Source of the DNA: a virus
IMG/VR virus record: IMGVR_UViG_3300030107_002709
Location: 1 to 64,000 of that record
DNA: 64,000 bases
Strand: one strand, 5' to 3'
Part shown: positions 685 to 32,671 of the stretch, piece by piece
Position numbering within the stretch: position 1 is the first letter of the stretch
Layout: each line of letters opens with the position of its first letter
Notes under the pieces: generated by a model
Told to the model about the DNA's origin: nothing
The model's database searches: none
The model's input: the letters and a program-made list of their open reading frames with translations, nothing else
Program-made: the position numbers and the translations under genes

Positions 685-3600
685 CTACTCTCCTATTTTT
701 AGAACGGTTAGGGTCACTTGTATAGTGGCGGCTGAACCGCTTCTATTATTTATTGAAACATAAATGTTTTCGTCTCTTGGATTATTATTATTGAATCCCA
801 TAACACCAGGTGTTATAAGAACTTCTTGATTTGCTGCAGAAGTTCTAACCTCTGCTACTACACCACTACCTGGTGCTGGATCCGCACCTTCACTTCTATC
901 TTTATCAGTTTGTCTTGTAGCATCATCAACATACAATCTTATCCAAGCTTCATGAGATGAAGTAATCTTGTAAAGAACATACCCTTTGTGTCCTGTAATT
1001 GTTACTTCACCACGTGCATTATCAGCAATGCTAGTTGATGTTGCATTAACATCACCTATAGATGGAGCAGTTGATCCACCTGTTGAACTGATGACTCCAT
1101 TACCATCAATAGTAACAGTAGAACCATCAACCTTAACACCACCAAGAGTTCCACTAGCAGTAACACCAGCAGTAGGTAATGTATATGCTCCAGCGTTAGC
1201 ACTAAGAACACCAGTAGCAGCATCCATAGTAAGGTTAGCACCTACTTTAATACCACCAAGAACTGATGCTGATGCTTGAGGTATAGATGTTAAGTAACTT
1301 GCTAGGTCAGGTGGTGTGTATGTAAAGGTGCTACCAGTTAATGATATACCTCCACCACCACTAGCAGCAGCATTAGCTCCTACTGCATAGTCTTTACTGT
1401 TGATAGTAATTCTTTTGTTAGCACCATCCCATGCAACATCAGTTCCATTACTACCAATGAATTCTATACTGTTAACAGTTGGAGTTGTATCATCATCTGT
1501 TAGATCAATGAATGCATTAGTAGAACTTGTATTTCTACCAGTTAATGTGTAGGTTAATCCACCTCCTCCTCCACCACCACCAGTAACGGTAGCACTGAGG
1601 AATTTTGTACCACTATCATAGGCAAAAGTAATACCAGTATGAGTACCGTTGCTTATGGAAGACCATGTAGCATCCTTTGCCATATCATCGGTGTACTGAG
1701 TAACCGAAGTACCACCTTGCCTGAAGGTTATTGTATTAGCATCTGTCCTCTCAACACTAAGACCATCAGCACCAGCAAACTTGATTGAATTACTAATACC
1801 TCTAACAGAATCTTGTATCGTTAGATCAGTAGCATTAGGTCCAGCATTAATATCTGAACTCAAAGTATAGTTGTGAATACTTCCAAGTGATAGACCTAGA
1901 TTTATAGATTGGTTACTCCATGCATCAGTAGTAAGTGTTGATGTTAAACCACTACCAACATTAAGAGTAAACTTACCTGAATCTGTACCACTATTATCAA
2001 CCAACTTGATAATCTTTCTAGCACTATTCTCTGATGTAGTACCACTAGTATGTTCATTCGCAGAAAGAGTATATGTCTTCTCATAGTTACCCAACAAGGT
2101 ATCAAAATCAGAATTAGCTTCTGTTGTAGTAACTATTCTCTGACCTATCCAATCACTTCCATCAGAGTAATGCATTGCATTAATGTCACTAGCATATGCT
2201 ATCTGTCCTTCATGAGTTGAAGCAAGTGGATAGTTTGCTACACCAGAGTACACTGTTATACCAGAACCACTACCTCCTCCACCTCCACCAGCAGCATCAA
2301 CCCACTGTGAACTACTACCATCGTTGTAATAGATCTTTAACTGACCAGCGTTAGAGTTCCACCATAAGTCTCCAGCACTAGGTGCACCAGGTGCTGCATC
2401 ATTAATAGTAACGCTAGCTCCACCGCCGCCACCACCACCTGATAGAGTTGACCAAGATGTATTACCAGATCCATCACTGATAAGAACTTGGTTAGCACTA
2501 CCGTTATTTGGTGGGAATACAAAGGTTGTGTTACCAGATAATAAGGATGCTGCTGGAGATTTTAATGTTGTTTGGTATTGATTATTATTATCAGTAGATA
2601 AGTTTAACTCTGCAACAGAATTACCAGCAGAAACAGTCAGTCCACCAACAGTTATAGCAGTTGTAGTTGTACTACCACGACCAGTAACTGAAGAAAGAGT
2701 ATCAGTCTCAGTGTAAGATCCAGCCTGATTGACCCAACTTGTATTTCCCGATCCATCTGTGCGTAAAACTTGATCTACATTACCATGACTTGCAGGTAAC
2801 GTGAAGTTAATGTTACCACTGAAGTTAGCATGGGGTGGTGCTTTTACACTTACCTTATGTGCATTACTAACCTCACAATAGAGGTCGATAGATGCCACGT
2901 TTCCAGTGCCTGTTCTTATTGATAGAAGACCATCAGCAAGAGTGATACCACCCGTAGTACCATTACCACCAATGGTAGCAGAGTTATTTGATGTTGATCC
3001 CCTAGCAATAACATTAGCAAGGGTGCTGGTCTCCGTGTAAGATGTTAAATAATTACTAAGATCTGGTGGGGTGAATGAAAAGACTCCATTTGCACTGTTA
3101 TATGTTATGTTTCCGTTACCACTAGCAGCATTTGGTGCACCAACAGACAAAGCAGTTAGTGCTACATACCCACCAGAAGCATGATCACCCCATGCATATG
3201 CTGCATCCCAGTTAGTTATCTTAGTACCAGTAATATTATATGCAGCAGAAGCAACAAAGACTGGATCAGACTCTGCAGATGTTGAAGTTAGATATCCCTG
3301 TGTACTATGATCACCCCAACCATGAGCTTCATTCCAATCTGTTGAAGTACCACCAGTAGCAGTAACAACACCACTGACTGTAATTCCTGTCGCCGTAGTA
3401 GCTAATTTCTCTGCTGCAGAATGATATAACTTAACCTCTCCATCAGGAACAAACTTAGCAAGAAGGTCACTGGTTCCATTCTTTAATAAGTTAATATCAT
3501 GTGCACTCTCAATTGATAATGGATTACCAGCATTAGAATGTTTTATCTGACTCTTACTACCTGTATGAACAATAGTAAAATCAGATCCTGTACCAAGAAC

Positions 3601-4320
3601 TATGGACTGAGTATCTGATAAGACAATTCCACCAACTGTAAGTATTTGGTTAGTACTACTTCCTCTATCAGATACACTATCAAGTGTTTCATTAACAGCA
3701 AAAGATCCGAAACTAAGACCACCCGATCCATCAGTAACTATAGCTTGTCCAGACAGACCATCATTTGAAGGGTAGGTTAAACCAGAAGCTTCTAAAGTAT
3801 TTGATATAGTGGTTTTTAAATTTGTTACAGTAACCTTGGCTACATTATTCTGATATAGTTTTACAGTACCACCCACACCCTCAGATGCTTCAATCAGTGT
3901 AGAACTACTTGCTTGATTCTTTAAAGCAATAGCATCACTACAAATTTCTAAACCAGTTAAAGCAACTATCCTATTACCATCAGCAGTGGTGTGAGATATT
4001 GCTAGGTCATCACTAGCACCAAACAATGCAGCTGCACCATCACCCCATTTCAGTGAATCACCAGATGGACTCCATTGTACATTACTTGTTGAACCAGTGA
4101 ATGTTGATGTACCACCACTTACAAATCCAGCATCAAGAGTAAGTTGTACATTAGTAGTAGCACCTCTGTTTGTAACTGTTGCTAAATCATCTGTACCTGT
4201 ACTTGATACTCCAACAGATTCCCAAGCAACACCATCCCACGCCCAAGTCCTCCCACCTGTAGTATAGGTGAAACTACCATCAGTTAGTTGCCCTGCGGTT
4301 GAGGGAAAATTTATGGCCAT
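685..4320 (-). CDS. Large modular virion / tail-fibre-like protein (1211 aa)
   Basis: A long Ser/Thr/Gly/Asn-rich protein with low-complexity poly-Gly linkers and no enzymatic motif, typical of cyanomyovirus fibre or decoration proteins. Repeated modules are visible: pairs of W-x-x-AHGWGDH...GYLT-like units near residues 330-385, and a GDLWWNS..G.LKIYY..GSSSQWV unit near residues 650-680. Both also occur in the neighbouring 1850-aa protein. The last 120 residues look like a compact globular cap (W-I-R-L-Y, DPAPGSGV). The ATG at 4320 is preceded by GGAAGGAG and, further up, a GATAAATA late-promoter box. A role in host adsorption is inferred from composition and neighbours. Confidence 0.75.
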   Translation of the reverse strand: MAINFPSTAGQLTDGSFTYTTGGRTWAWDGVAWESVGVSSTGTDDLATVTNRGATTNVQLTLDAGFVSGGTSTFTGSTSNVQWSPSGDSLKWGDGAAALFGASDDLAISHTTADGNRIVALTGLEICSDAIALKNQASSSTLIEASEGVGGTVKLYQNNVAKVTVTNLKTTISNTLEASGLTYPSNDGLSGQAIVTDGSGGLSFGSFAVNETLDSVSDRGSSTNQILTVGGIVLSDTQSIVLGTGSDFTIVHTGSKSQIKHSNAGNPLSIESAHDINLLKNGTSDLLAKFVPDGEVKLYHSAAEKLATTATGITVSGVVTATGGTSTDWNEAHGWGDHSTQGYLTSTSAESDPVFVASAAYNITGTKITNWDAAYAWGDHASGGYVALTALSVGAPNAASGNGNITYNSANGVFSFTPPDLSNYLTSYTETSTLANVIARGSTSNNSATIGGNGTTGGITLADGLLSIRTGTGNVASIDLYCEVSNAHKVSVKAPPHANFSGNINFTLPASHGNVDQVLRTDGSGNTSWVNQAGSYTETDTLSSVTGRGSTTTTAITVGGLTVSAGNSVAELNLSTDNNNQYQTTLKSPAASLLSGNTTFVFPPNNGSANQVLISDGSGNTSWSTLSGGGGGGGASVTINDAAPGAPSAGDLWWNSNAGQLKIYYNDGSSSQWVDAAGGGGGGSGSGITVYSGVANYPLASTHEGQIAYASDINAMHYSDGSDWIGQRIVTTTEANSDFDTLLGNYEKTYTLSANEHTSGTTSENSARKIIKLVDNSGTDSGKFTLNVGSGLTSTLTTDAWSNQSINLGLSLGSIHNYTLSSDINAGPNATDLTIQDSVRGISNSIKFAGADGLSVERTDANTITFRQGGTSVTQYTDDMAKDATWSSISNGTHTGITFAYDSGTKFLSATVTGGGGGGGGLTYTLTGRNTSSTNAFIDLTDDDTTPTVNSIEFIGSNGTDVAWDGANKRITINSKDYAVGANAAASGGGGISLTGSTFTYTPPDLASYLTSIPQASASVLGGIKVGANLTMDAATGVLSANAGAYTLPTAGVTASGTLGGVKVDGSTVTIDGNGVISSTGGSTAPSIGDVNATSTSIADNARGEVTITGHKGYVLYKITSSHEAWIRLYVDDATRQTDKDRSEGADPAPGSGVVAEVRTSAANQEVLITPGVMGFNNNNPRDENIYVSINNRSGSAATIQVTLTVLKIGE

Positions 4321-4350: not shown

Positions 4351-7300
4351 CTATAGAGCTGCTATTCTTGTTTGGAAATCAGCGAAGTCAGTAGATGCTG
4401 CAACGACACTCTTCAATTCACTTAGTTTAATATAATCTGTCTGGGATAACGGTGGTGTTGCAGAAACCCACTGTGAAGAATCAGGATCTTGGTAGTAGAT
4501 CTTAAGTGTACCATCAGTTGAATCCCACCATAGATCACCATCAATTGCTGTTGCTGGAGCAGTATCATCAGTAGATACATTAGCACCACCGCCACCGCCA
4601 CCGCCTCCACCAGAACCACTGGAGACCTTCATGATGTAGCAGAGGGCATAGTATTTTGGTCTGATGTCTACATTGTTACCACTACCATTAGTTAAAACAG
4701 TAGCACCAGTAGTCTTAACATCAGATCCAAGACTTAAAGTTCTGTCTCCGATAGAAATACTAGTTGGATTGCTATCTACAGTTACACTAGAGTTAGAACT
4801 ACCAACAGATCCTGATACAGAAACAGATGGACTTGCACTACCTGTACTACCACTATGAGTGTGGCCACCAGCATTACCTGTGTTACCACCAACATTTCCA
4901 TAGAAACTATGACTGTGACCACCACCACTACTGATACTTATACCAGTACCAGAACTCCAAGTTGAACTAGTAGAAGCTCCAGAAACAACAGTAGTATCAG
5001 CTCCATGACTATCAGTATCAACACCTGTACCTCCAGAAGGTATAGCAGCCGTATGTTGATGGCCAGGATCACTTACACTGTGACCATGATTTCCACCACT
5101 ACCTGTGTTACCGCTAACACTACCACTCATAGAGTGAGAGTGAGAACCCTGACTAGATCCAGTACTGAAGTTGTGACTATGTGAACTAGATGATCCACTA
5201 CCACTCCAACTATGTGAGTGTCCACTATCACTTACGTCATGAGAGTGTCCATCATCTGTAACACTATGAGTATGAGATCCAACTGAAGTATGTGAGTGTC
5301 CAGGATCATTCAAACCATGAGCATGAGAAGGCATCTGATTAGTGGTCAGAGTTATTAAATCATTACCACCAGTATCATCAACAGAATATGTTTCACCTAC
5401 GTTACCAGTTCCTATAGAAGCACCAACAACAAATCTATCTCTTAGATCAGGAGTCTGTTGTCCATTCTGCACAGAACCATCACACAATGCCCAACCAGTT
5501 GGTATATTACTGATAGATCCAGACCAAATTATAATCATACCTTGCTCAACACCGCTAGGTGGTATCACCTGATCTGCTGCTTCCCACTTCAATGTAGAAC
5601 TATTGTACTGTAATATCTGACCAGAACCAGGTGATGCTGTTGAAACATCTGATAGATCATTAAGAGAACTAGCACTCAAACCAGTTAAATATCCAGCACT
5701 AGCATGGTTACCCCATCCATGTGCTGTAGTCCAATTAGTTGAGTTTCCACCAGTAGTAGTGATCTCACCACTAACTGTAATTCCAGATGTAGTAGTCTCA
5801 AATTTCTTTACTTTATTCCAGAACAACTCAACTGAACCTGAGTCATTGAAGATTGCTCTGTTACCACCACTCTCAGTAATTCTTAATGGATGTCCACCTG
5901 GACTACTAACAATATTAGCAGATCCACTATGACCAATCTGTAGATCCTGTCCAGCACCCATCTTAAGATAGATACTATCATCTACAGTAATATCATTGGT
6001 ACTAGAAATACCATGAGCAGTGATAGAAGTTGTAGTAGTGTTACCTCTTTGAGCAACATTATCAAGAGTGTCTGCAGCAGAAACAACAGCAGGAGTAAAT
6101 TCAAATACACCAGTGTTAGAATTATATGATAATCCACCACCAGCAGCTGCTGTTACAGTACTAACGGATAGATCTGTTAGGTTTATACCACCTCCACCAC
6201 TAGCAGTAAGGTCAGACGCTGGTTCATATAGATTTGTATTTGCATTCCACTTCAGTATCTGACCCTGTGAAGGAGCAGCAGAAGATACATCAGCAAGATC
6301 TTTTGTCTTAAATCCTTGTCCACTAATGGTTATAGAACCAACATCTAGAGCACTCGAAATCGTCACTCCAGTCGCAGTGGTTTCTAAACGCTTTGTTCCA
6401 TTATGGTAGAGCTCAACTGTACCACCATTAATAAACTGTGCTAATAGATCTCCACTAGCACCACCACCATTAGTAATCTTTGTTATACCACCAGTAGAAC
6501 CTATCAATAGATCAGAGTTAACAGTCCTCAATGATAGATCAACTGTGTTACCTACTATCTCATCTACTGTAGTATCATGATATATCTGTAAGGTCTGAGA
6601 AGGACCGAACCTTAACTTATGATTTGCACCTGAAAGATCCAATCCACCAGCAGTAATAACATTACTAGTAGTAGCACCATTAGTACTAACATCATGTAAG
6701 TCTGATGATGTTGGAGCTGAAGCAAGGTTGGTGAAGCTAACGACACCTTGACCATTTGTGGTCATGACTTGTCCTGGATTACCGTCAGCCGCAGGGTAGG
6801 TTAAACCACTAACCTTAAACGTACCATTATTACCATTATTAAATTCTACATTACCATTAGAATATATCCTAGAGTAAGTATTGATGCTAACGTATCCATT
6901 AGCAGTGGTGATGAACATATCACCTTCTTGACCCTTGATAGTTCCCTGTACACTAGTATCACTGTTTGCTCTGAATCTAATCTCTGAATGAGATCCAGTA
7001 TCAATAAGTGATAGAGCACCATTCAACGTACCATCATTAGATACATCAACACCACCAACAACAAGAGTATTGGTAGTCTGATTACCTCTATCTGTTACAT
7101 CATCTAAGTCATCACTACCTGATGCTCCACTTACACTAGATACACTAGTCGGAACCCATAGTCCATCACCATCACTCCATGCTAATACCTTACCATCAGC
7201 AGCACTATCAACTGAAGTAGATACATTTGTTAAAGTTCCTAGTGTAGATGGTACAGAAGGCTTACCAGTTAAAGAGTTCCATGTACCATCAAATAATGAT

Positions 7301-9903
7301 GGTGTGTTAGTTAAACTATTATAGTCTCCATTGAATACATCAGCAGGTGTAAAGGTAAACGTACCATTATTATCATAAGATAAACTACCACCACCTGAAG
7401 CAGGTGATCCTGTAGATACAGAGAAGGCAGTCAATCCACCTACAATTCCACCACCACCTGATAGATCAGATCCAGGAGCCCATTTGTTCTGTGCAGAACT
7501 CCACTTAAGAACCTGTCCATCTGAAGGAGAAGCATTAGATACATCAAACAGATCAGAAAGATTCTCAGTTAAAATATTTGTTAGATAACCCTGACTAGAA
7601 TGATTACCCCATTGATATGCAGCATTCCAGTTAGCAGTTTGAACATTAGTTATATTATATGCAGCAGAAGCAACAAAGACAGGATCAATCTCATTGTATG
7701 ACGTTAGATAAGGACTAAGATCTGGTGGTGCATATGTGAATATACCATTAGAAGGACTGTATGTTAATCCACCTGGTCCACTAGGATTTAATTGGTATAC
7801 AGAAAGTTGAGAGAAGTCTGCATTACCTCCACCACCTCCACCTTCACCTTCACCATGATCAGCTTGGGCTGCCCATTTAGTACCATCCCATTTAATTATA
7901 TGTCCTACTGCAAGTGTTCCAGTATCTACATCACTAAGATCACCTATACTTGCTTGACTTACTTGCTGTCCTAGTTGAATCCAAGTTCCATCCTGATACA
8001 TCTCAACTTGGTTTGAACTATTGTTATAAACCAGAGTACCATTGAGTACATTTAGTGCATCTCTTTCACTAGTTGTCTTACTAGGTAACTTAAGTGAATC
8101 TAATATACTAAGAGAAGATATATTACCAGCAGCAGATACAATATTATCGGTATTAATATAACCATCTACTTTAAACTCACCACCACCAGGTTCCCATAGT
8201 AATTGGTTAGTTCCAGCAAAACCACCACCAGAATTATACTGTATCGATCCTGTTACTCCACCAGCATTAGGAGTACCACCTCCACCTCCACCAGAGACAG
8301 AAGTAGTAGCAATACTTGTTATCCTTCCTGTTGGACTTACAGTAATAATAGGTATACTATTAGCACTACCATAAGTTCCACCAGATGCACCTGTTAACCC
8401 TGATAACTGATCTGCATTACCAGTGTATGCATTAGCATCTAATGTACCAGTTACAGTAAGACCAGCAAATGTAGGAGTAGCAGCAACACTTAAGTCTTGT
8501 GCAACAGAGAAAGTTAACTCATTATTATTTGTACCACCTCTAGTAAGAGTAACACCAGTACCAGCAGTTAATTTAAACTCCTCTGCATTAGAATTACTAT
8601 CAGTTAAACGAACAATCTTTGTGCTAGCTTGTGTATCATTCTCTACAGTCAGATAGTATAAAGTATCTGCAGAGTCAACAGTTAATTTCTTATTGGTATT
8701 ATCAAGGTTAACTGTAGTAGCACCAGTACCTACTACTTGTAGAATATCATTACTAGCAATAGTAACATTTACAGTAGCATCTCCTATTGCCCATCCTGCA
8801 TACAGCGAAGGTATCTGACCCCAAGTAGCTGTGTTACCATCTGATGTGAGGTATCTACCAGAATTACCTGCTTGAGCAGGTAACAATGCAGTGATTGCTG
8901 CTGACGCTGTGGTAGCACCAGTACCACCATATGCTATACCTATGGTATTAGCATTCCAAATACCAGATGTTAGTGCACCAACACTAGTAAGACTAGAACT
9001 TACTACAGTGTTACCAAGACCAGTAGAATCTATTACACTAATTCCATTGATCTTATATTCTTTACCTATAGATAGATCCCAATTCTCTGAAGACTTCCAA
9101 GCATCCTCACTATTATCCCAGAGAATAGTATGTTCTGTGTTCCCCTTTAATTTTATACCACCACCATCAGCTATACTATCTGAAGGGGCGAGGACATCAT
9201 TTAAAAATATGAACTTATCTGTTGTAGTAACAGTGGTAACATTAGAGTACGTTGTCGTTCCCTGTACTGTAAGATTACCTGATATTACAAGAGAATTAAA
9301 TGTTACAGAGTCAGTTGTTCCTACTGGTTGTCCAATCTGAATCTGATTCTCGGAATTAATGGTTACACCATTCGTTCCTGTATATGTTGTGTTTGTATCA
9401 GTTGCATTTACGGTGATCGTTCTACCGCTTTGAGTAATATTAGCAGCACCGCTACCAACAATAGATACATCTCCATCAGTATAGCCTGTACCATTAGCAC
9501 CTATCTTCGTTACTGTATCAGTGTCTGTGAAGTTACCATCAACAGTAATCCTAGATCCATCTCTAGTTAAAGCTATGTTTGAACCTGCAACAAGGACTAC
9601 TTCAGAGCTTGATCCTCCTGATCCACCTGCAGTTAACTTAATTACTTTATCCGTTACTGGATTAACTCCATCAACAGCAGACACTACGTAAGTCGTGTTG
9701 CTATCTGTTGTGGAAATACTAAACCACTCTAGTCCTGTAGATCCCCTTCCTAAAACTTGGCCTGATAATCCTGGGTTGCTATTAAGAATAATAGAACCAT
9801 CAATTTCTAAATTTTTAGTACTAGGTATCTTAAGACCTTCGACTGCAAGGGTAGGACCACTACCACCTTGATTGATGAGTTCGTTTACTCTAATTCTGGA
9901 CAT
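4351..9903 (-). CDS. Giant tail-fibre protein with tail-collar domain and His-rich tip (1850 aa)
   Basis: This is the largest gene in the window. Its N-terminal ~1440 residues are Ser/Thr/Gly/Asn-rich with recurring units (W-x-x-A-x-x-W-G-x-H...GYLT, LSDVS...G.ILKW, TLDNVA.RGN.TT). Around residues 1465-1540 it has a phage tail-collar-like signature (IPTGWALCDGS, then TPDLRDRFVVGA). A His-rich segment at about residues 1520-1685 carries many H-x-H pairs, and the collar closes with RPKYYALCYIMK near residue 1750. The C-terminus repeats a GDLWWDS..G.LKIYY unit found in the 1211-aa protein. By analogy with T4 fibre tips this is probably a receptor-binding fibre; that role is inferred. Confidence 0.82.
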   Translation of the reverse strand: MSRIRVNELINQGGSGPTLAVEGLKIPSTKNLEIDGSIILNSNPGLSGQVLGRGSTGLEWFSISTTDSNTTYVVSAVDGVNPVTDKVIKLTAGGSGGSSSEVVLVAGSNIALTRDGSRITVDGNFTDTDTVTKIGANGTGYTDGDVSIVGSGAANITQSGRTITVNATDTNTTYTGTNGVTINSENQIQIGQPVGTTDSVTFNSLVISGNLTVQGTTTYSNVTTVTTTDKFIFLNDVLAPSDSIADGGGIKLKGNTEHTILWDNSEDAWKSSENWDLSIGKEYKINGISVIDSTGLGNTVVSSSLTSVGALTSGIWNANTIGIAYGGTGATTASAAITALLPAQAGNSGRYLTSDGNTATWGQIPSLYAGWAIGDATVNVTIASNDILQVVGTGATTVNLDNTNKKLTVDSADTLYYLTVENDTQASTKIVRLTDSNSNAEEFKLTAGTGVTLTRGGTNNNELTFSVAQDLSVAATPTFAGLTVTGTLDANAYTGNADQLSGLTGASGGTYGSANSIPIITVSPTGRITSIATTSVSGGGGGGTPNAGGVTGSIQYNSGGGFAGTNQLLWEPGGGEFKVDGYINTDNIVSAAGNISSLSILDSLKLPSKTTSERDALNVLNGTLVYNNSSNQVEMYQDGTWIQLGQQVSQASIGDLSDVDTGTLAVGHIIKWDGTKWAAQADHGEGEGGGGGGNADFSQLSVYQLNPSGPGGLTYSPSNGIFTYAPPDLSPYLTSYNEIDPVFVASAAYNITNVQTANWNAAYQWGNHSSQGYLTNILTENLSDLFDVSNASPSDGQVLKWSSAQNKWAPGSDLSGGGGIVGGLTAFSVSTGSPASGGGSLSYDNNGTFTFTPADVFNGDYNSLTNTPSLFDGTWNSLTGKPSVPSTLGTLTNVSTSVDSAADGKVLAWSDGDGLWVPTSVSSVSGASGSDDLDDVTDRGNQTTNTLVVGGVDVSNDGTLNGALSLIDTGSHSEIRFRANSDTSVQGTIKGQEGDMFITTANGYVSINTYSRIYSNGNVEFNNGNNGTFKVSGLTYPAADGNPGQVMTTNGQGVVSFTNLASAPTSSDLHDVSTNGATTSNVITAGGLDLSGANHKLRFGPSQTLQIYHDTTVDEIVGNTVDLSLRTVNSDLLIGSTGGITKITNGGGASGDLLAQFINGGTVELYHNGTKRLETTATGVTISSALDVGSITISGQGFKTKDLADVSSAAPSQGQILKWNANTNLYEPASDLTASGGGGINLTDLSVSTVTAAAGGGLSYNSNTGVFEFTPAVVSAADTLDNVAQRGNTTTTSITAHGISSTNDITVDDSIYLKMGAGQDLQIGHSGSANIVSSPGGHPLRITESGGNRAIFNDSGSVELFWNKVKKFETTTSGITVSGEITTTGGNSTNWTTAHGWGNHASAGYLTGLSASSLNDLSDVSTASPGSGQILQYNSSTLKWEAADQVIPPSGVEQGMIIIWSGSISNIPTGWALCDGSVQNGQQTPDLRDRFVVGASIGTGNVGETYSVDDTGGNDLITLTTNQMPSHAHGLNDPGHSHTSVGSHTHSVTDDGHSHDVSDSGHSHSWSGSGSSSSHSHNFSTGSSQGSHSHSMSGSVSGNTGSGGNHGHSVSDPGHQHTAAIPSGGTGVDTDSHGADTTVVSGASTSSTWSSGTGISISSGGGHSHSFYGNVGGNTGNAGGHTHSGSTGSASPSVSVSGSVGSSNSSVTVDSNPTSISIGDRTLSLGSDVKTTGATVLTNGSGNNVDIRPKYYALCYIMKVSSGSGGGGGGGGGANVSTDDTAPATAIDGDLWWDSTDGTLKIYYQDPDSSQWVSATPPLSQTDYIKLSELKSVVAASTDFADFQTRIAAL

Positions 9904-27700: not shown

Positions 27701-28294
27701 TTATTTATAATATTTGAGAGCTGCTTCATAATAGTCACCTATATTATGGTCAGCAACTCCATCAAAACGAGTATCTTTCTCGTCCTCTAGTTTGATAACT
27801 GGATGAGTGTGTACATAGCCAGCGAGCCAAGGAGGAGTCCCTGGAACAATGTCATCACCATGCACAAACCGAAGATGTTCAAGATCTTTGATCCTCTTTC
27901 TAAGCTTACGTCCACCTGGTCTAGGTGAACCAGCAGTTACAAGTGCAATATTCTTATTGCCTGACTCCCATAACAAGTCTGCAATAAGTGTTGCGGTAGC
28001 TCCACCAAGAGAATGACCTGCAATAACAAGCTTTCTCTTAGGATCCAAACCTTCATATGCTACCACTAGTTCTGCTAGTGTCCTGTTAGCATTGTTCTTG
28101 AATCCTCTGTGACAATCGTCACGTTTAATAAGAAACTTCAGATTGGTTACCCAGTCTGTAGTCTCATTAGTTCCTTCAACTGCAAGAATGGTATGACCTT
28201 CCACCTTCCTACTAACTAGGAAGTCTTGCTTATGTGGATACACATCTCTACAGCACTTAAGTGCTTCGAGTATTGCCTCTTTTGCTAAAGTCAT
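27701..28294 (-). CDS. Class 3 lipase / alpha-beta hydrolase (197 aa)
   Basis: The nucleophile elbow GHSLGG places the catalytic Ser at residue 95; D147 or D148 in VHGDDIVP and H183 in VADHNIGDY complete a Lipase_3-type triad in the right order. It would hydrolyse ester bonds in lipids or other acyl esters. No signal peptide is seen. A GATAAATA late box lies upstream and a structural gene follows, so the enzyme could be packaged in the virion or act late at the envelope; both are inferences. Confidence 0.85.
   Translation of the reverse strand: MTLAKEAILEALKCCRDVYPHKQDFLVSRKVEGHTILAVEGTNETTDWVTNLKFLIKRDDCHRGFKNNANRTLAELVVAYEGLDPKRKLVIAGHSLGGATATLIADLLWESGNKNIALVTAGSPRPGGRKLRKRIKDLEHLRFVHGDDIVPGTPPWLAGYVHTHPVIKLEDEKDTRFDGVADHNIGDYYEAALKYYK
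27712..27719 (-). promoter_or_regulatory. Late promoter TATAAATA
   Basis: A perfect T4-type late consensus on the minus strand, 50 bases upstream of the Ig-domain protein's ATG and within the last codons of the lipase gene. Confidence 0.65.
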
Positions 28295-28467: not shown

Positions 28468-29009
28468 CTAGAATAACTCATTATTTTATCGATGGTCTTC
28501 TGCTTCTTAGACTCACATGCTGCTTCTTCTTCAACTACTGTGCCTTCTCTCTCTGCAGCTGCTTTCTCCCATCTCTCTTTAGTTATAGTGAAAGTAGTCT
28601 GAGTCATTTCACTAAGTTCTGTAAGAATCTCTTCTAACTTAGCTTCTAATTCTTCTCTAGTTGCCTTCTTCTCAACTTCAACCTCTTCTCTCTTAATAGC
28701 AGTCTGCAAATGCTTTATCTCAGCACCATGTGACTGCTTAATCTTTGTGCTATCAGGTGCACCAGCATTAGCCTTAGGATCCTTTGTACTATCATCATCA
28801 GTGTTAACCACTTTAATAGTAGGGATAGTTTCCTTATCAAATTCAGGCTTAGGTATAGTACCTATTGGTGTTTCAATAGTAGCAGGTTCCTCTTTGATGG
28901 TGGTTCCTTGGAAGGTATTTCCATCCATCCACTGTGCATATGATTCGATTAGTGCTTTAGAATAATCATCATTATGTTGCACTGATGTTGTAGGTGCTTG
29001 CTTGTCCAT
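28458..29009 (-). CDS. Acidic coiled-coil protein, 0-frame product of a probable frameshift gene (183 aa)
   Basis: The N-terminal ~85 residues are Thr/Pro/Asp-rich and probably disordered. Residues ~95-175 form a charged coiled coil (EVEVEKKATREELEAKLEEIL). The product ends SYSRKK at TAG 28458, but a slippery heptamer directly at the stop allows a 47-residue extension. A perfect TATAAATA late box lies 28 bases upstream of the ATG, so it is probably a virion or assembly protein. Function not recognised. Confidence 0.65.
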   Translation of the reverse strand: MDKQAPTTSVQHNDDYSKALIESYAQWMDGNTFQGTTIKEEPATIETPIGTIPKPEFDKETIPTIKVVNTDDDSTKDPKANAGAPDSTKIKQSHGAEIKHLQTAIKREEVEVEKKATREELEAKLEEILTELSEMTQTTFTITKERWEKAAAEREGTVVEEEAACESKKQKTIDKIMSYSRKK

Positions 29010-29253
29010 GAGTAAAAAAGGCTGTTCTTCTTGGTTTATTTATACTTTCATTGACTTCTCTTATGTCCCTCACCCAAGCTCTAAACATTTCATGGGCTTC
29101 GGAAACACAAATAACATAGTTCGGTCCAGTGCGGATTATCTTCCCCTTGATACCAGTGTTAACATTCATCACAGTCTGTCCCTCAGTGAAGCATTCCTTC
29201 TGTCTGAAGTTCTGTCTTACTGCTTGATTTTTAATATCTCTAAATGTTTTCAC
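28972..29253 (-). CDS. Small conserved protein, possible SH3-like fold (93 aa)
   Basis: Starts with GTG at 29253, overlapping the stop of the adenylyltransferase-like gene as GTGA. The middle (GQTVMNVNTGIKGKIIRTGPNYVIC) reads like a small SH3/KOW-type beta barrel, followed by a Trp-containing helix (FRAWVRDIREVNE). No catalytic motif. It closes the operon that begins with the 540-aa protein. Confidence 0.55.
   Translation of the reverse strand: MKTFRDIKNQAVRQNFRQKECFTEGQTVMNVNTGIKGKIIRTGPNYVICVSEAHEMFRAWVRDIREVNESINKPRRTAFFTHGQASTYNISAT
29037..29044 (-). promoter_or_regulatory. Late promoter TATAAATA
   Basis: Perfect late consensus on the minus strand, 28 bases upstream of the ATG of the coiled-coil frameshift gene and inside the 93-aa gene. 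Confidence 0.6.
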
Positions 29254-29822
29254 AGTCCAAGTCCTTTACGAACATCTGCCATCAATTCTAAAGCATCATC
29301 TGTATTTAGTAGATCACCAATACCTCCTAAAAAATCTCTAGTCTTTGTATTTTTAGCAGCATCTCTCATTAAAGAAGCAGACAAACCAGATGTACCATCA
29401 GAATCAGGATCTCTTTCTAAACCAGTTGAATCAATTGTTACTGTATCAAAAGCATAGTATGCCTTACCTTCTCCAGTCTCTTTCCTATTCCACTTGACAT
29501 TAAATGCAAAATCTTTTGTCCTATCACTACCACATACTATAACAACATCAGTATAATTCTCCATCATAAGATGTTGTAGAACAAATGGTAGGGTTCTTAA
29601 TTGCTTATCAGATTTTATATTATTAACATACTCAGGAAACATCTTCTTTATCCAACCAAGCTTTGTAAGATGGTCTAATGGATCCTTAGCTTTACCTTGT
29701 GACCACGTAGGCCAAATCATAAAGTCTTCATGACCAGCAAGTTTCTTAAGCTGATCCAACATTTTTTTATGCCCTAGATGTGGAGGATTTAACCTACCAA
29801 ATACAATCCAAACTCTTTTCAT
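29250..29822 (-). CDS. Adenylyl/cytidylyltransferase-like protein with HxGH motif (190 aa)
   Basis: The N-terminus MKRVWIVFGRLNPPHLGHKK carries the HxGH signature (H15, H18) of the nucleotidylyltransferase superfamily. GLSASLMR further on corresponds to the second nucleotide-binding motif (ISSTxxR type). VIVCGSDR in between is the conserved central strand. Family members make NAD (NMN adenylyltransferase), CDP-glycerol or coenzyme A intermediates. The substrate here is unknown. The start is the ATG at 29822, overlapping the ligase-like gene's stop (ATGA); the longer frame begins with TTG. Confidence 0.75.
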   Translation of the reverse strand: MKRVWIVFGRLNPPHLGHKKMLDQLKKLAGHEDFMIWPTWSQGKAKDPLDHLTKLGWIKKMFPEYVNNIKSDKQLRTLPFVLQHLMMENYTDVVIVCGSDRTKDFAFNVKWNRKETGEGKAYYAFDTVTIDSTGLERDPDSDGTSGLSASLMRDAAKNTKTRDFLGGIGDLLNTDDALELMADVRKGLGL

Positions 29823-31015
29823 GACCAACCCTTGAGTGAGACATCAAAGTTAGCCTGACTAAACACTAACCTCTTAATCAATTTAGTAGCTTTACCATTT
29901 TTAATAGCAACATACCCTTCCTGTGCAGTCATCTCAAGACCTTCATCAGTCCTGATATAAGTACCAAACTTCTCACCCTTCTCAAGCTTAGTAACAAATA
30001 TTTCTTTAGCATCCTGGATAGTCTTATATAACTTCACCGTATTATCAAACTGAGATCCATGAGCATCTATAAAATCACGACCATTGTATAACTTAGCAAG
30101 TTTTGCTGCTTTAGTTTTTGGTTGCTTTACTTTATCTGCTGCCTTCTTACACTCACCACTAAAGTAATCCTTAAAATCAGAAGTAAAACTATTTCCTACT
30201 TGCTTACCTTCTCGAACATACTTATTAAAATACTGCTTAAGCTTAACACCAATGGTAAGTTGATCGTTCTCTGCTATCTGCTTTGCTACACCATCTAAGA
30301 AAGGACCACATTTATTAACAAGAGAGTTACTAGAATTTTTTAAATTAATCAACTTCTGTTTCTCTTCAGATGTTAATAAAATATCTTTTCCTAGTGTGTC
30401 TATCTCTGCACTGATAACAAATACATTCTTATCCTTCTTTAATTTAGATGGATCAAATCCAAAAGAAGCATGAAGCCTCTCAATACTATTACCAGTATAT
30501 GTGGTATGAAATACCACTCCTATCTTTGCTTCATTGGCTAAATCAAAATCACTGTCTTCTTGTGGTATAGCATATGTTATTGTATTTGGTTTGAATGTAA
30601 TTGACCTCTTACCATCCACCATTTCTATTTTCTTATCATCTGTAAACAACAAGTCTCCCTGTACTACTCCTTCAATTCCTATAGAAGGAAGATACTTTAA
30701 AGCATCCTTTAACTTAGAAGTAAGACCAGGAGCATGACCATGATTGTTGTCTATATCTTCATCAGTATAATTAATCTTTGCATCCTTATTAAAGATAGAC
30801 TTAGTACCAACAAAGAAGTTATCTGTTCCTGGATACTGTCCACAGAATATAGCAGGTGCACCATCCCACTTTGTAGTCATCTTAAAATTACTAGTACCCT
30901 TACCAGTAAAGGTTCTAGCCAATGAATCTAAAAATTTAAAAGCATCTTTAGCACCCTCTTTCCCATCAAGGAGAATGCTATCTTCTAAATGTTCTAGGTG
31001 AGTGTTCTTAGACAT
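29819..31015 (-). CDS. Ligase-like covalent nucleotidyltransferase candidate (398 aa)
   Basis: TTKWDGAPAIF (K49-D51-G52) looks like motif I KxDG of ATP- or NAD-dependent nucleic-acid ligases. Further candidates follow in the right order: GVVQGDLLF near 116-124 (motif III position, but Asp instead of the usual Glu), IGVVFHTTY near 165-173 (IIIa), EGYVAI at 366-371 (motif IV) and K-L-I-K-R at 378-382 (motif V). The spacing between IIIa and IV is far larger than in classic ligases, so an inserted or alternative domain is present. It could be a divergent RNA or DNA ligase or a non-catalytic relative. Confidence 0.5.
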   Translation of the reverse strand: MSKNTHLEHLEDSILLDGKEGAKDAFKFLDSLARTFTGKGTSNFKMTTKWDGAPAIFCGQYPGTDNFFVGTKSIFNKDAKINYTDEDIDNNHGHAPGLTSKLKDALKYLPSIGIEGVVQGDLLFTDDKKIEMVDGKRSITFKPNTITYAIPQEDSDFDLANEAKIGVVFHTTYTGNSIERLHASFGFDPSKLKKDKNVFVISAEIDTLGKDILLTSEEKQKLINLKNSSNSLVNKCGPFLDGVAKQIAENDQLTIGVKLKQYFNKYVREGKQVGNSFTSDFKDYFSGECKKAADKVKQPKTKAAKLAKLYNGRDFIDAHGSQFDNTVKLYKTIQDAKEIFVTKLEKGEKFGTYIRTDEGLEMTAQEGYVAIKNGKATKLIKRLVFSQANFDVSLKGWS

Positions 31016-32637
31016 TAGTATATCTTAGCGAATGGACCATATCTCAATCCCATCTTCTGAGCGATGAAGACCATATCAGTAACAAACTTATCCCTATCTT
31101 TCCTAGACAGAGAGAAGAAAGCATCAAGCCAAGTAATCTGCATTAACTTAGAGTTAGCAACCTGTGGTTGAATAGAGAATAAAAACAATAGATTATCATA
31201 TATCTCTTGGAATGATCTAACGCCACCAAAACTTACTCCTGCATTAGCAACTCTTTTTATTCTGTCCAACCACTTCTTCTCATAATCTAAGAACTCAGAA
31301 GCTTGTTGAGGATATGCTGAACTATTTCCTACAAATTTCCTTGAAGATCCATACTGTTTAAAAAGATCTTCAACATACTCAACCGTTGCTTTACCTAATC
31401 TAGCAGCACCAGCAGCTTTATCTGATGGTTCATATTTTAAACCACTAAACTTTTGACTATCATTCGCTTTAATCTGGAACTTATATTTTGTTGTACCATC
31501 ACCCTGCACAACCAATGATGTGTCTTGAGTAGAGAGAGTTATAACACCCTTCTTTTCTTTCTTAGTACAGTCACATAATGTACTAAGATAATGATACTCA
31601 GTAGTCTTCATTTGATTAAGACCCATGAATTTATCAACACTATTCCAATGAAGATTAACCTCAGACCAGAGTGCTTCATCACCACTAACCTTCTTTAAAG
31701 ATATTCCCCATATCTGTTTCTTTCTCCACAAATCCCTCATGATAGCATTGAACTGTAAGAGTTGTGGATCAACTCTATCTCTCAGTCTGGCCCTCATATT
31801 AGTCCTATGCTTCTCATCAGTATGTTCCTCAAGATGTTTTATCCATTTGTCCTCATTATTAATCAACCAGATATCAGCAGGGTTCCAGTTATCTTTCTTA
31901 CCTTTAGATGCCCAACCCTTACCTGCAACATATCCACTAACCCATTGCATAAAAGTTCCTTCTCTATCAAAGACAGTAAAATCTCCTTTACTACACTTCT
32001 TTAATAAAGTTTGATTCTGTTTCCAAAAATTCTCATACCAATCATCTGTAACCTGATCCAACTTACATACATCCTTCCACAGTTTTTTCATATACTTACT
32101 TACTGTCGGATCTGCCTTTAATTTTTCCCAATTATCCCAGGATTCATTATGTCTTATTGCTCTCTCAAAAACAAACAACGATCCAAGTTCTTGAGCTCTG
32201 GTCATAGCCGCAGCATTTACCTGTTCCTCTGGTAACCTCGTTGAAATTACCTGAACCTTTTGTTGTTTCCCTGTATCAAGAACAAATCCCATAGTAAACA
32301 CAGGATCTGAACCTGATATCTTTATGTTTTTAGGATCTGGTTCCCATTTCTTTTTCTCTATGTTCCATTTCTTTGCTTGAAGATTCTTACATTCTCTTTG
32401 AACTTTCTGAACACCTGCAACATTAGTACATATTTGAATAGCACCACCTTTAGCAGGTACTTTTGATTTACTTCCACTAGGCCACTGTGATCCCATAGGT
32501 CTAGGTCCTTTTGCTCCTTTATCCTGAATAAGCCATGTTGATGCCTTACCAAAGACATCAGCCATTTGATCTCTATGAGTCTTTTTCTTAATGTAAGCTA
32601 AGAAATCGTTTTGGATATCGAAACCTATTTTGGCCAT
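31015..32637 (-). CDS. Large conserved phage protein of unknown function, possibly nuclease-like (540 aa)
   Basis: A soluble, Lys/Trp-rich protein and the first gene of the ligase-like/adenylyltransferase-like operon. WNPADIWL at residues 251-258 followed by ISLKK at 312-316 resembles the D...(S/E)xK arrangement seen in some PD-(D/E)XK nucleases, but this is a motif impression only. No membrane segment. The ATG follows a terminator stem directly, and the stem's 3' arm (TAGAGGGGG) supplies the only Shine-Dalgarno-like sequence. It abuts the next gene, sharing bases of stop and start (TAATG). Confidence 0.55.
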   Translation of the reverse strand: MAKIGFDIQNDFLAYIKKKTHRDQMADVFGKASTWLIQDKGAKGPRPMGSQWPSGSKSKVPAKGGAIQICTNVAGVQKVQRECKNLQAKKWNIEKKKWEPDPKNIKISGSDPVFTMGFVLDTGKQQKVQVISTRLPEEQVNAAAMTRAQELGSLFVFERAIRHNESWDNWEKLKADPTVSKYMKKLWKDVCKLDQVTDDWYENFWKQNQTLLKKCSKGDFTVFDREGTFMQWVSGYVAGKGWASKGKKDNWNPADIWLINNEDKWIKHLEEHTDEKHRTNMRARLRDRVDPQLLQFNAIMRDLWRKKQIWGISLKKVSGDEALWSEVNLHWNSVDKFMGLNQMKTTEYHYLSTLCDCTKKEKKGVITLSTQDTSLVVQGDGTTKYKFQIKANDSQKFSGLKYEPSDKAAGAARLGKATVEYVEDLFKQYGSSRKFVGNSSAYPQQASEFLDYEKKWLDRIKRVANAGVSFGGVRSFQEIYDNLLFLFSIQPQVANSKLMQITWLDAFFSLSRKDRDKFVTDMVFIAQKMGLRYGPFAKIY

Positions 32638-32671
32638 AAAAAAATCCCCCTCTAGTTATTTAGAGGGGGAT
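32638..32671 (-). terminator. Rho-independent terminator after mazG, overlapping the next gene's ribosome-binding site
   Basis: On the minus strand ATCCCCCTCTA pairs perfectly with TAGAGGGGGAT (11 base pairs, six-base loop), followed by seven T's and then directly the ATG of the 540-aa gene. It ends the replication operon after mazG. Confidence 0.88.

Follow-up and report, generated by a model that had tools for sequence, protein, structure and literature searches.

Three overlapping genes, here called A, B and C, lie on the minus strand of a 64,000-nucleotide stretch of viral DNA (the window: positions 1 to 64,000 of the 132,963-base IMG/VR virus record IMGVR_UViG_3300030107_002709). The record is that of a T4-like, Kyanoviridae-type virus. 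We are confident that A-B-C is a coupled, allelic three-gene unit, which lies behind a late-type promoter motif and whose first position is a swappable slot. The function that we favour for it, with a probability of roughly 0.38, is that of a nuclease cassette expressed late, in which B and C provide protection. The features concerned are listed below.

A, 31015-32637, minus strand: 540-aa nuclease-like slot protein (phrog_1462, T4-GC 419) with a D255...S313-L314-K315 motif
B, 29819-31015, minus strand: 398-aa DUF6267 protein with ligase-type nucleotidyltransferase motifs (K49xDG, GD121, E366GxV, K378)
C, 29250-29828, minus strand: HxGH nucleotidyltransferase, probably NMNAT-like (GRLNPPHLGH ... 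LSASLMR)
D, 28972-29253, minus strand: 93-aa protein adjoining the cassette and outside it
Hairpin, 32644-32671, minus strand: 11-bp stem followed by a T-run, directly 5' of the A start codon
Late-promoter core TCTAAATAA, 32656-32664, minus strand: T4-type, in the hairpin loop, 27 nt upstream of the A start codon
Allelic cassette, 29250-32650, minus strand: extent set by the drop and recovery of DNA identity against relatives L018 and L034

A-B-C is exchanged as a unit

Genes A to D overlap end to start on the minus strand, through TAATG (A/B), ATGA (B/C) and GTGA (C/D), as a preliminary description of this DNA had reported. That description also placed D in the operon, a view that comparison with relatives overturns. 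At the amino acid level the genes flanking A-B-C are nearly the same in the window and in the metagenomic relative L018 (UvsX 100%, gp41 99%, an 81-aa gene 100% and MazG 99% identity), as are those on the far side of C (D 99%, a 183-aa gene 96% and a lipase 99%), whereas identity falls to 51% in A, 89% in B and 66% in C. A second relative, L034, has a similar pattern. Against both, DNA identity falls off where A starts (~32,650) and is regained at the C stop codon (~29,250). Synonymous divergence from L018 is 0.02 to 0.10 in the flanks, against 1.47 in A, 0.34 in B and 0.45 in C, with dN/dS values of 0.30, 0.20 and 0.56, respectively. Locus L019 shows the converse: its flanks have diverged (gp41 74%, MazG 50%, D 56%) and its cassette, which has not, is of the second allele group. 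A and C sort into the same allele groups. From the identity borders and the converse pattern of L019 it follows that the three genes of the cassette travel jointly and D separately, and D was rejected as a member of the unit.

Gene order in Prochlorococcus phage P-HM2 (T4-GC 419 - 71 - 190 - 534) matches that of the window, and Vibrio phage EniLVp02 also keeps the order A-B-C. The preliminary description had looked to co-occurrence of the trio across phages. This is borne out for B and C: each of the 16 B-bearing genomes searched has C, and S-PM2 fuses the two in one 591-aa protein (BFVD A0A0M6VVW4). Routine separation of the genes, named there as a refutation, is seen for A, often replaced or missing, but at genome level not for B with C. 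T4 and KVP40 have neither B nor C, and PBECO4 has C without B.

The slot upstream of B

Several pairs of loci have unrelated slot proteins beside a near-constant B: L043/L044 (B 99% identical), L058/L059 (B 97%), L046/L048 (B 93%, gp41 96%), L060/L056 (B 96%, gp41 99%) and L073/L045 (B 99%, gp41 97%). By BLAST, genes directly upstream of B form 16 clusters, and in most loci the slot gene is coupled to B through its stop and start codons. The pattern D-h-x-h...(S/E)xK occurs in 9 of the 16 clusters compared with 2 of 97 dereplicated other proteins (0.5 expected after shuffling), with a p-value that is indicative only because the pattern was written after viewing the sequences and the strict match in cluster 0, where the actual spacing is ~55, is fortuitous. 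Invariant residues are D204 and S218-L219-K220 in cluster 1, and D216 and S225-L226-K227 in cluster 2. The slot protein of L048 matches PADLOC models of type II restriction/nicking endonucleases (REase_II, 2.3e-12), and its homologues lie 30 to 50 bases upstream of B in the cultured phages S-8S56, S-CAM3, S-CAM9 and S-PRM1.

The WNPADIW...SLKK pattern to which attention had been drawn in A is conserved: D255, S313, L314 and K315 do not vary among 24 relatives, the most distant of which have 16 to 20% identity, and together with E150 are among 19 invariant columns. As a PD-(D/E)XK pattern, it has S in place of D/E before L314-K315 and an insertion of ~55 aa. Window A matched no PADLOC model, those for type II restriction/nicking endonucleases included, and a PDB sequence search with the A profile gave no match. 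Pol-beta-type fold matches of the A model were non-significant and were left unused.

Some slot occupants are not nuclease-like. S-PM2 has no A upstream of B; in S-SKS1, A is in pieces and B is at another place in the genome. B is thus retained where A is exchanged or lost. The slot is likely to be a nuclease slot. The A remnants of S-SKS1 (69000-79000; L194) lie between MazG and C, one of them with an internal TAA, and B is intact elsewhere. In L055 a 214-aa GIY-YIG-like open reading frame (ORF) of homing endonuclease type (3320-3961) lies between the slot nuclease and B, and in its sister locus L048 an ORF of equal length (214 aa; 7244-7885) follows B.

A late-type promoter motif precedes the unit

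The late promoter motif of cyanomyoviruses has been published as NATAAATA (PMC2984593). Of 54 distinct stretches upstream of the slot gene, 45 have its core, NTAAATA, within 60 bases of that gene (5 expected), compared with 1 of 81 upstream regions of UvsX, gp41 and MazG. The core also precedes the downstream 183-aa, lipase and 265-aa genes in 22 of 23 cases, and where a locus lacks a slot nuclease it lies upstream of B itself in five of the eight examined. In the window, TCTAAATAA (at 32664) forms part of a hairpin loop; the 3' arm of this hairpin is the Shine-Dalgarno-like stretch of A. The terminator placed here by the preliminary description does have a strong hairpin and a T-run, but because the loop carries the late-promoter core it is also the start point of A-B-C. 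This arrangement suggests that A-B-C is expressed late.

Nineteen NTAAATA sites lie 10 to 80 bases upstream of ORF starts on the minus strand between window positions 754 and 62436, and provide a candidate late-promoter map. A search with the pattern ATGAAARTN was uninformative.

B is probably a ligase-fold nucleotidyltransferase

B belongs to Pfam family DUF6267 (PF19782, E 2.6e-118), which is named in no paper found in the literature library searched. It matches 467 phage records, cyanophages nearly throughout. The KxDG, EG..V and late K noted earlier in this protein all prove conserved: K49, D51, G52, A53, P54, D121, E366, G367, V369 and K378 are invariant (69 to 74 aligned sequences per site; K49, D51 and G52 in 100% of 74), and the set holds in ~300-aa short forms that other genomes encode at other places. 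Ligase motifs I, III, IIIa, IV and V follow one another in this order, which B reproduces as KxDG - GD - (HT) - EGxV - K; motifs III (D121), IV (E366-G367) and V (K378) are each at 100%. The acid of motif III is D121, where ligases usually have E. Because KxDG, D, EGxV and K are kept in every member tested, B is probably a ligase-fold nucleotidyltransferase.

The AlphaFold model of B has a pLDDT of 78.5. Against BFVD its first named match outside the family (E 0.016, probability 0.63) is the Agrobacterium phage Atu_ph07 RNA ligase; more RNA ligases come after it with weaker scores. B has a helical insertion before motif IV, and neither an OB-fold nor a C-terminal domain after motif V. T4 Rnl1 and Rnl2 and DNA ligases share with B the order KxDG, acid, EGxV, K; the D of motif III, the helical insertion and the lack of a domain after motif V set B apart from these covalent nucleotidyltransferases.

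One patch of B (window 30301-30450, about residues 188-238, at the start of the helical insertion) has only 76% DNA identity between allele types, the rest of the gene being conserved; it might be a point of contact with A or C. DUF6267 is also found on archaeal and bacterial metagenome-assembled genome contigs (L123-L131), most of which have phage-type neighbours and are thus probably phage sequence binned with those genomes.

C is likely to be an NMNAT-like enzyme

C is assigned to CTP_transf_like and to cytidyltransferase phrogs. Its likely start is the ATG at 29822, giving 190 aa (192 aa from the TTG). The HxGH motif attributed to C earlier is real, and the GRxNPPxxGH and SASxxR motifs are kept from the window to other cyanophages, more loosely in a Vibrio phage. 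Residues characteristic of nicotinamide mononucleotide (NMN) adenylyltransferases, R12, P15, P16, H20, S150 and R155, are invariant in 11 sequences; the first H of HxGH is T in most relatives. The closest curated subfamilies are NMN/NaMN adenylyltransferases, with scores all far under the cut-off: against TIGR00482 window C scores 23 bits and S-PM2 29 bits, the cut-off being 112. A PDB sequence search with the C profile gave nothing useful. From its motifs, C is likely to be an NMNAT-like enzyme. Like the phage NMNAT and NAD-salvage genes (KVP40 NadM, NARP2-type), C is an HxGH nucleotidyltransferase nearest to NMNAT/NadR models. It differs from them in that no NAMPT partner is seen in the unit and in being coupled or fused to a ligase-like protein.

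D, which falls in a 91-aa phrog, is equivalent to the domain that in other cyanophages (P-SSM4, S-RIM2) forms the C-terminus of C. The database label 'ribonucleotide reductase alpha subunit' on this 93-aa protein (phrog_4808; S-PM2p144 in S-PM2) is therefore an annotation error. EniLVp02_0207 (L088 7050-7934), labelled 'DNA helicase', has a C-type HxGH nucleotidyltransferase domain at residues 123-295. In the pelagiphages HTVC008M and Melnitz-3 (L085 8377-10164; L089 7592-9541), C is a 596- to 650-aa protein with a DUF5824 domain. In jumbo coliphages (PBECO4, L087 5483-6534), a C-type nucleotidyltransferase gene overlaps a DNA methyltransferase gene, without DUF6267.

Capsid-targeting-like N-termini in relatives

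A capsid-targeting pattern was calibrated on 65 ORFs of two T4 stretches, in which it matched twice (N-termini MKTYQEFIAEAS and MKTYQEFIAEAR). We take these ORFs to be T4 internal proteins III and II. Among relatives, N-termini of this type, such as MKFKEFLTEATKENKNVHLEH on B, occur in 23 of 61 distinct proteins for B, 7 of 41 for C and 3 of 64 for the slot, compared with 6 of 620 other proteins. It is a matter of speculation, from these N-termini, that B or C, and sometimes A, are packaged in the heads of many relatives, and packaging in the phage of the window is equally speculative. In virions of S-CREM2 a cytidylyltransferase was detected by mass spectrometry (3 peptides), for which the authors allow for contamination (PMC10665884). 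It is encoded by ORF154, a candidate counterpart of C, beside which neither A nor B is annotated.

A proposed cassette that cuts DNA and protects its own

The favoured reading, a self-protecting nuclease cassette expressed late, would work as follows. A would nick or cut DNA, its place being filled in other phages by different restriction-like nucleases. Because the same B stands beside unrelated nucleases, B would act on the product of cutting (a nick or 5'-phosphate end) and not on the nuclease itself, so that one B could serve whichever nuclease is present. C might supply or regenerate the nucleotide cofactor or substrate of B. B or C (sometimes A), if packaged in the head, would enter the next cell along with the DNA; there A could turn on the DNA of the host or of competing phages, with B and C protecting or resealing that of the phage itself. 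Both the cut-and-repair weapon and its delivery in the virion are speculative. The three chemistries proposed in the preliminary description (nuclease-like, ligase-like and nucleotide transfer) stand at the level of motif and family, with firmness decreasing from C through B to A.

Several points weigh against this reading. We infer the catalytic activities of A, B and C, the target of A and the protective role of B and C, and a host ligase could repair the same nicks. The slot pattern was, as stated, composed post hoc. Models of A and B gave no significant fold match in PDB, ligases being among the weak matches of B at E about 1, and a PDB sequence search with the B profile gave no match, solved ligases included; the ligase fold of B, likely as it is, comes from motifs and weak fold matches. 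Nor were E-values significant when B was aligned by hhalign with RNA and DNA ligases. This negative is uninformative since, among the control pairs of true ligases, RNL_105 with T4 Rnl2 was clearly detected and RNL_105 with DNL_163 was missed; only the local register was used, which places KxDG of B on KxDG and GD of B on GE of DNA ligases. Finally, window A, B and C all lack a capsid-targeting N-terminus.

The neighbours of A-B-C-D are genes for a gp41-type helicase, UvsX, a B-family DNA polymerase and MazG. Given this setting and the constant pairing of B with C, B could be the absent DNA ligase of cyanomyoviruses, with C recycling NMN to NAD and A a processing nuclease for replication and repair. 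Cyanomyoviruses are reported to lack g30 and rnh (PMC2984593), and in the Kyanoviridae genomes searched ATP-type and NAD-type DNA ligases and RNA ligases (PF01068, PF01653, PF09414) were not found. We nevertheless regard this as unlikely: unlike the adjoining replication genes A-B-C has a late promoter, swapping between sister phages is not expected of a replication nuclease, and capsid-targeting-like N-termini occur in relatives. EniLVp02 and XaC1 hold DUF6267 along with a recognised ligase, for which reason B as a plain substitute for gp30 was rejected as a full account. The same N-termini would suit a counter-defence kit injected in the manner of T4 internal proteins, among which, too, the targeting sequence alone is conserved and the rest is diverse (PMC3012670); B would repair RNA or DNA cut by the host, NMNAT-like C would restore NAD and A would attack host defence or plasmid DNA. 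This is a distinctly unlikely alternative, as B is constant across nuclease types and counter-defence proteins usually track their target. RNA repair was set aside because an end-healing kinase or phosphatase partner of the T4 Pnkp/Rnl1 type, or any other end-healing domain, was not found in A-D (Pfam), and NAD counter-defence because the unit has no NAMPT or other salvage partner and C varies with A. Repair or NAD counter-defence, the functions first suggested for this operon, are possible and have no specific support; late transcription, the swappable slot, allelic replacement and the capsid-targeting N-termini all point away from them.

In P-HM2, a carrier of A-B-C, degradation of host DNA is reported to begin at 1.5 h (PMC5082946), yet denA, denB and ndd are reported absent from cyanomyoviruses (PMC2984593). 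A might therefore be their host-DNA-degrading nuclease, replacing denA/denB, with B and C protecting the ends of the phage genome on entry. It is improbable that this is the main role of A: if transcribed late, only injected protein could act by 1.5 h, many family members lack A, and general degradation does not need allelic swapping. The site upstream of B might instead be only a recombination hotspot, with slot genes functionally unlinked to B. Highly conserved flanking genes could mediate such exchange, and the occupants that are not nuclease-like would fit; but this is very improbable in view of the start/stop coupling with B, the nuclease-type motif shared by nine unrelated clusters and the co-variation of C, beyond B, with A. 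The absent ligase and the degradation of host DNA by P-HM2 may nonetheless be leads, and A-B-C makes two old cyanophage questions testable, the absence of a DNA ligase and that of genes for host-DNA degradation.

Likeness to known systems and wider meaning

The favoured cassette resembles type II restriction-modification systems and phage nicking endonucleases in its many unrelated restriction-like nuclease types, its allelic exchange as a unit and its logic of self-protection. It differs in that its constant partner is ligase-like B, unchanged when the nuclease is replaced. No cognate methyltransferase was found among A-D (Pfam) or in the A-B-C order of relatives, and a methylase-like gene occupies the slot only in L051/L052. 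Late expression, diverse cargo and the capsid-targeting-like N-termini found on many relatives of B and some of C recall T4 IPI, IPII, IPIII and Alt. However, the T4 internal proteins are small (IPI being a restriction inhibitor) and Alt is an ADP-ribosyltransferase, whereas the cargo here would be nuclease, ligase-fold and NMNAT-like proteins, and the window copies have no targeting sequence.

More tentatively, A-B-C may exemplify a novel kind of phage conflict system, 'restriction-repair', in which an exchangeable, late and often virion-delivered nickase or nuclease is combined with constant ligase-fold B and NMNAT-like C that heal self-inflicted cuts. If so, immunity would be independent of nuclease specificity and nucleases would therefore be freely exchangeable, a principle of protection that involves neither methylation nor a matched immunity protein. 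It would also explain how the most common marine myoviruses manage to compete, or to take over their hosts, though they lack the T4 nucleases that degrade host DNA, and could yield new sequence-specific nickases and ligases. The B, A and C genes are present in hundreds of cyanophage and pelagiphage-type records, annotated 'hypothetical'.

Beyond D, a class 3 lipase-type alpha/beta hydrolase (Lipase_3, 5e-20) is encoded at window positions 27701-28294, behind a late-type promoter motif.

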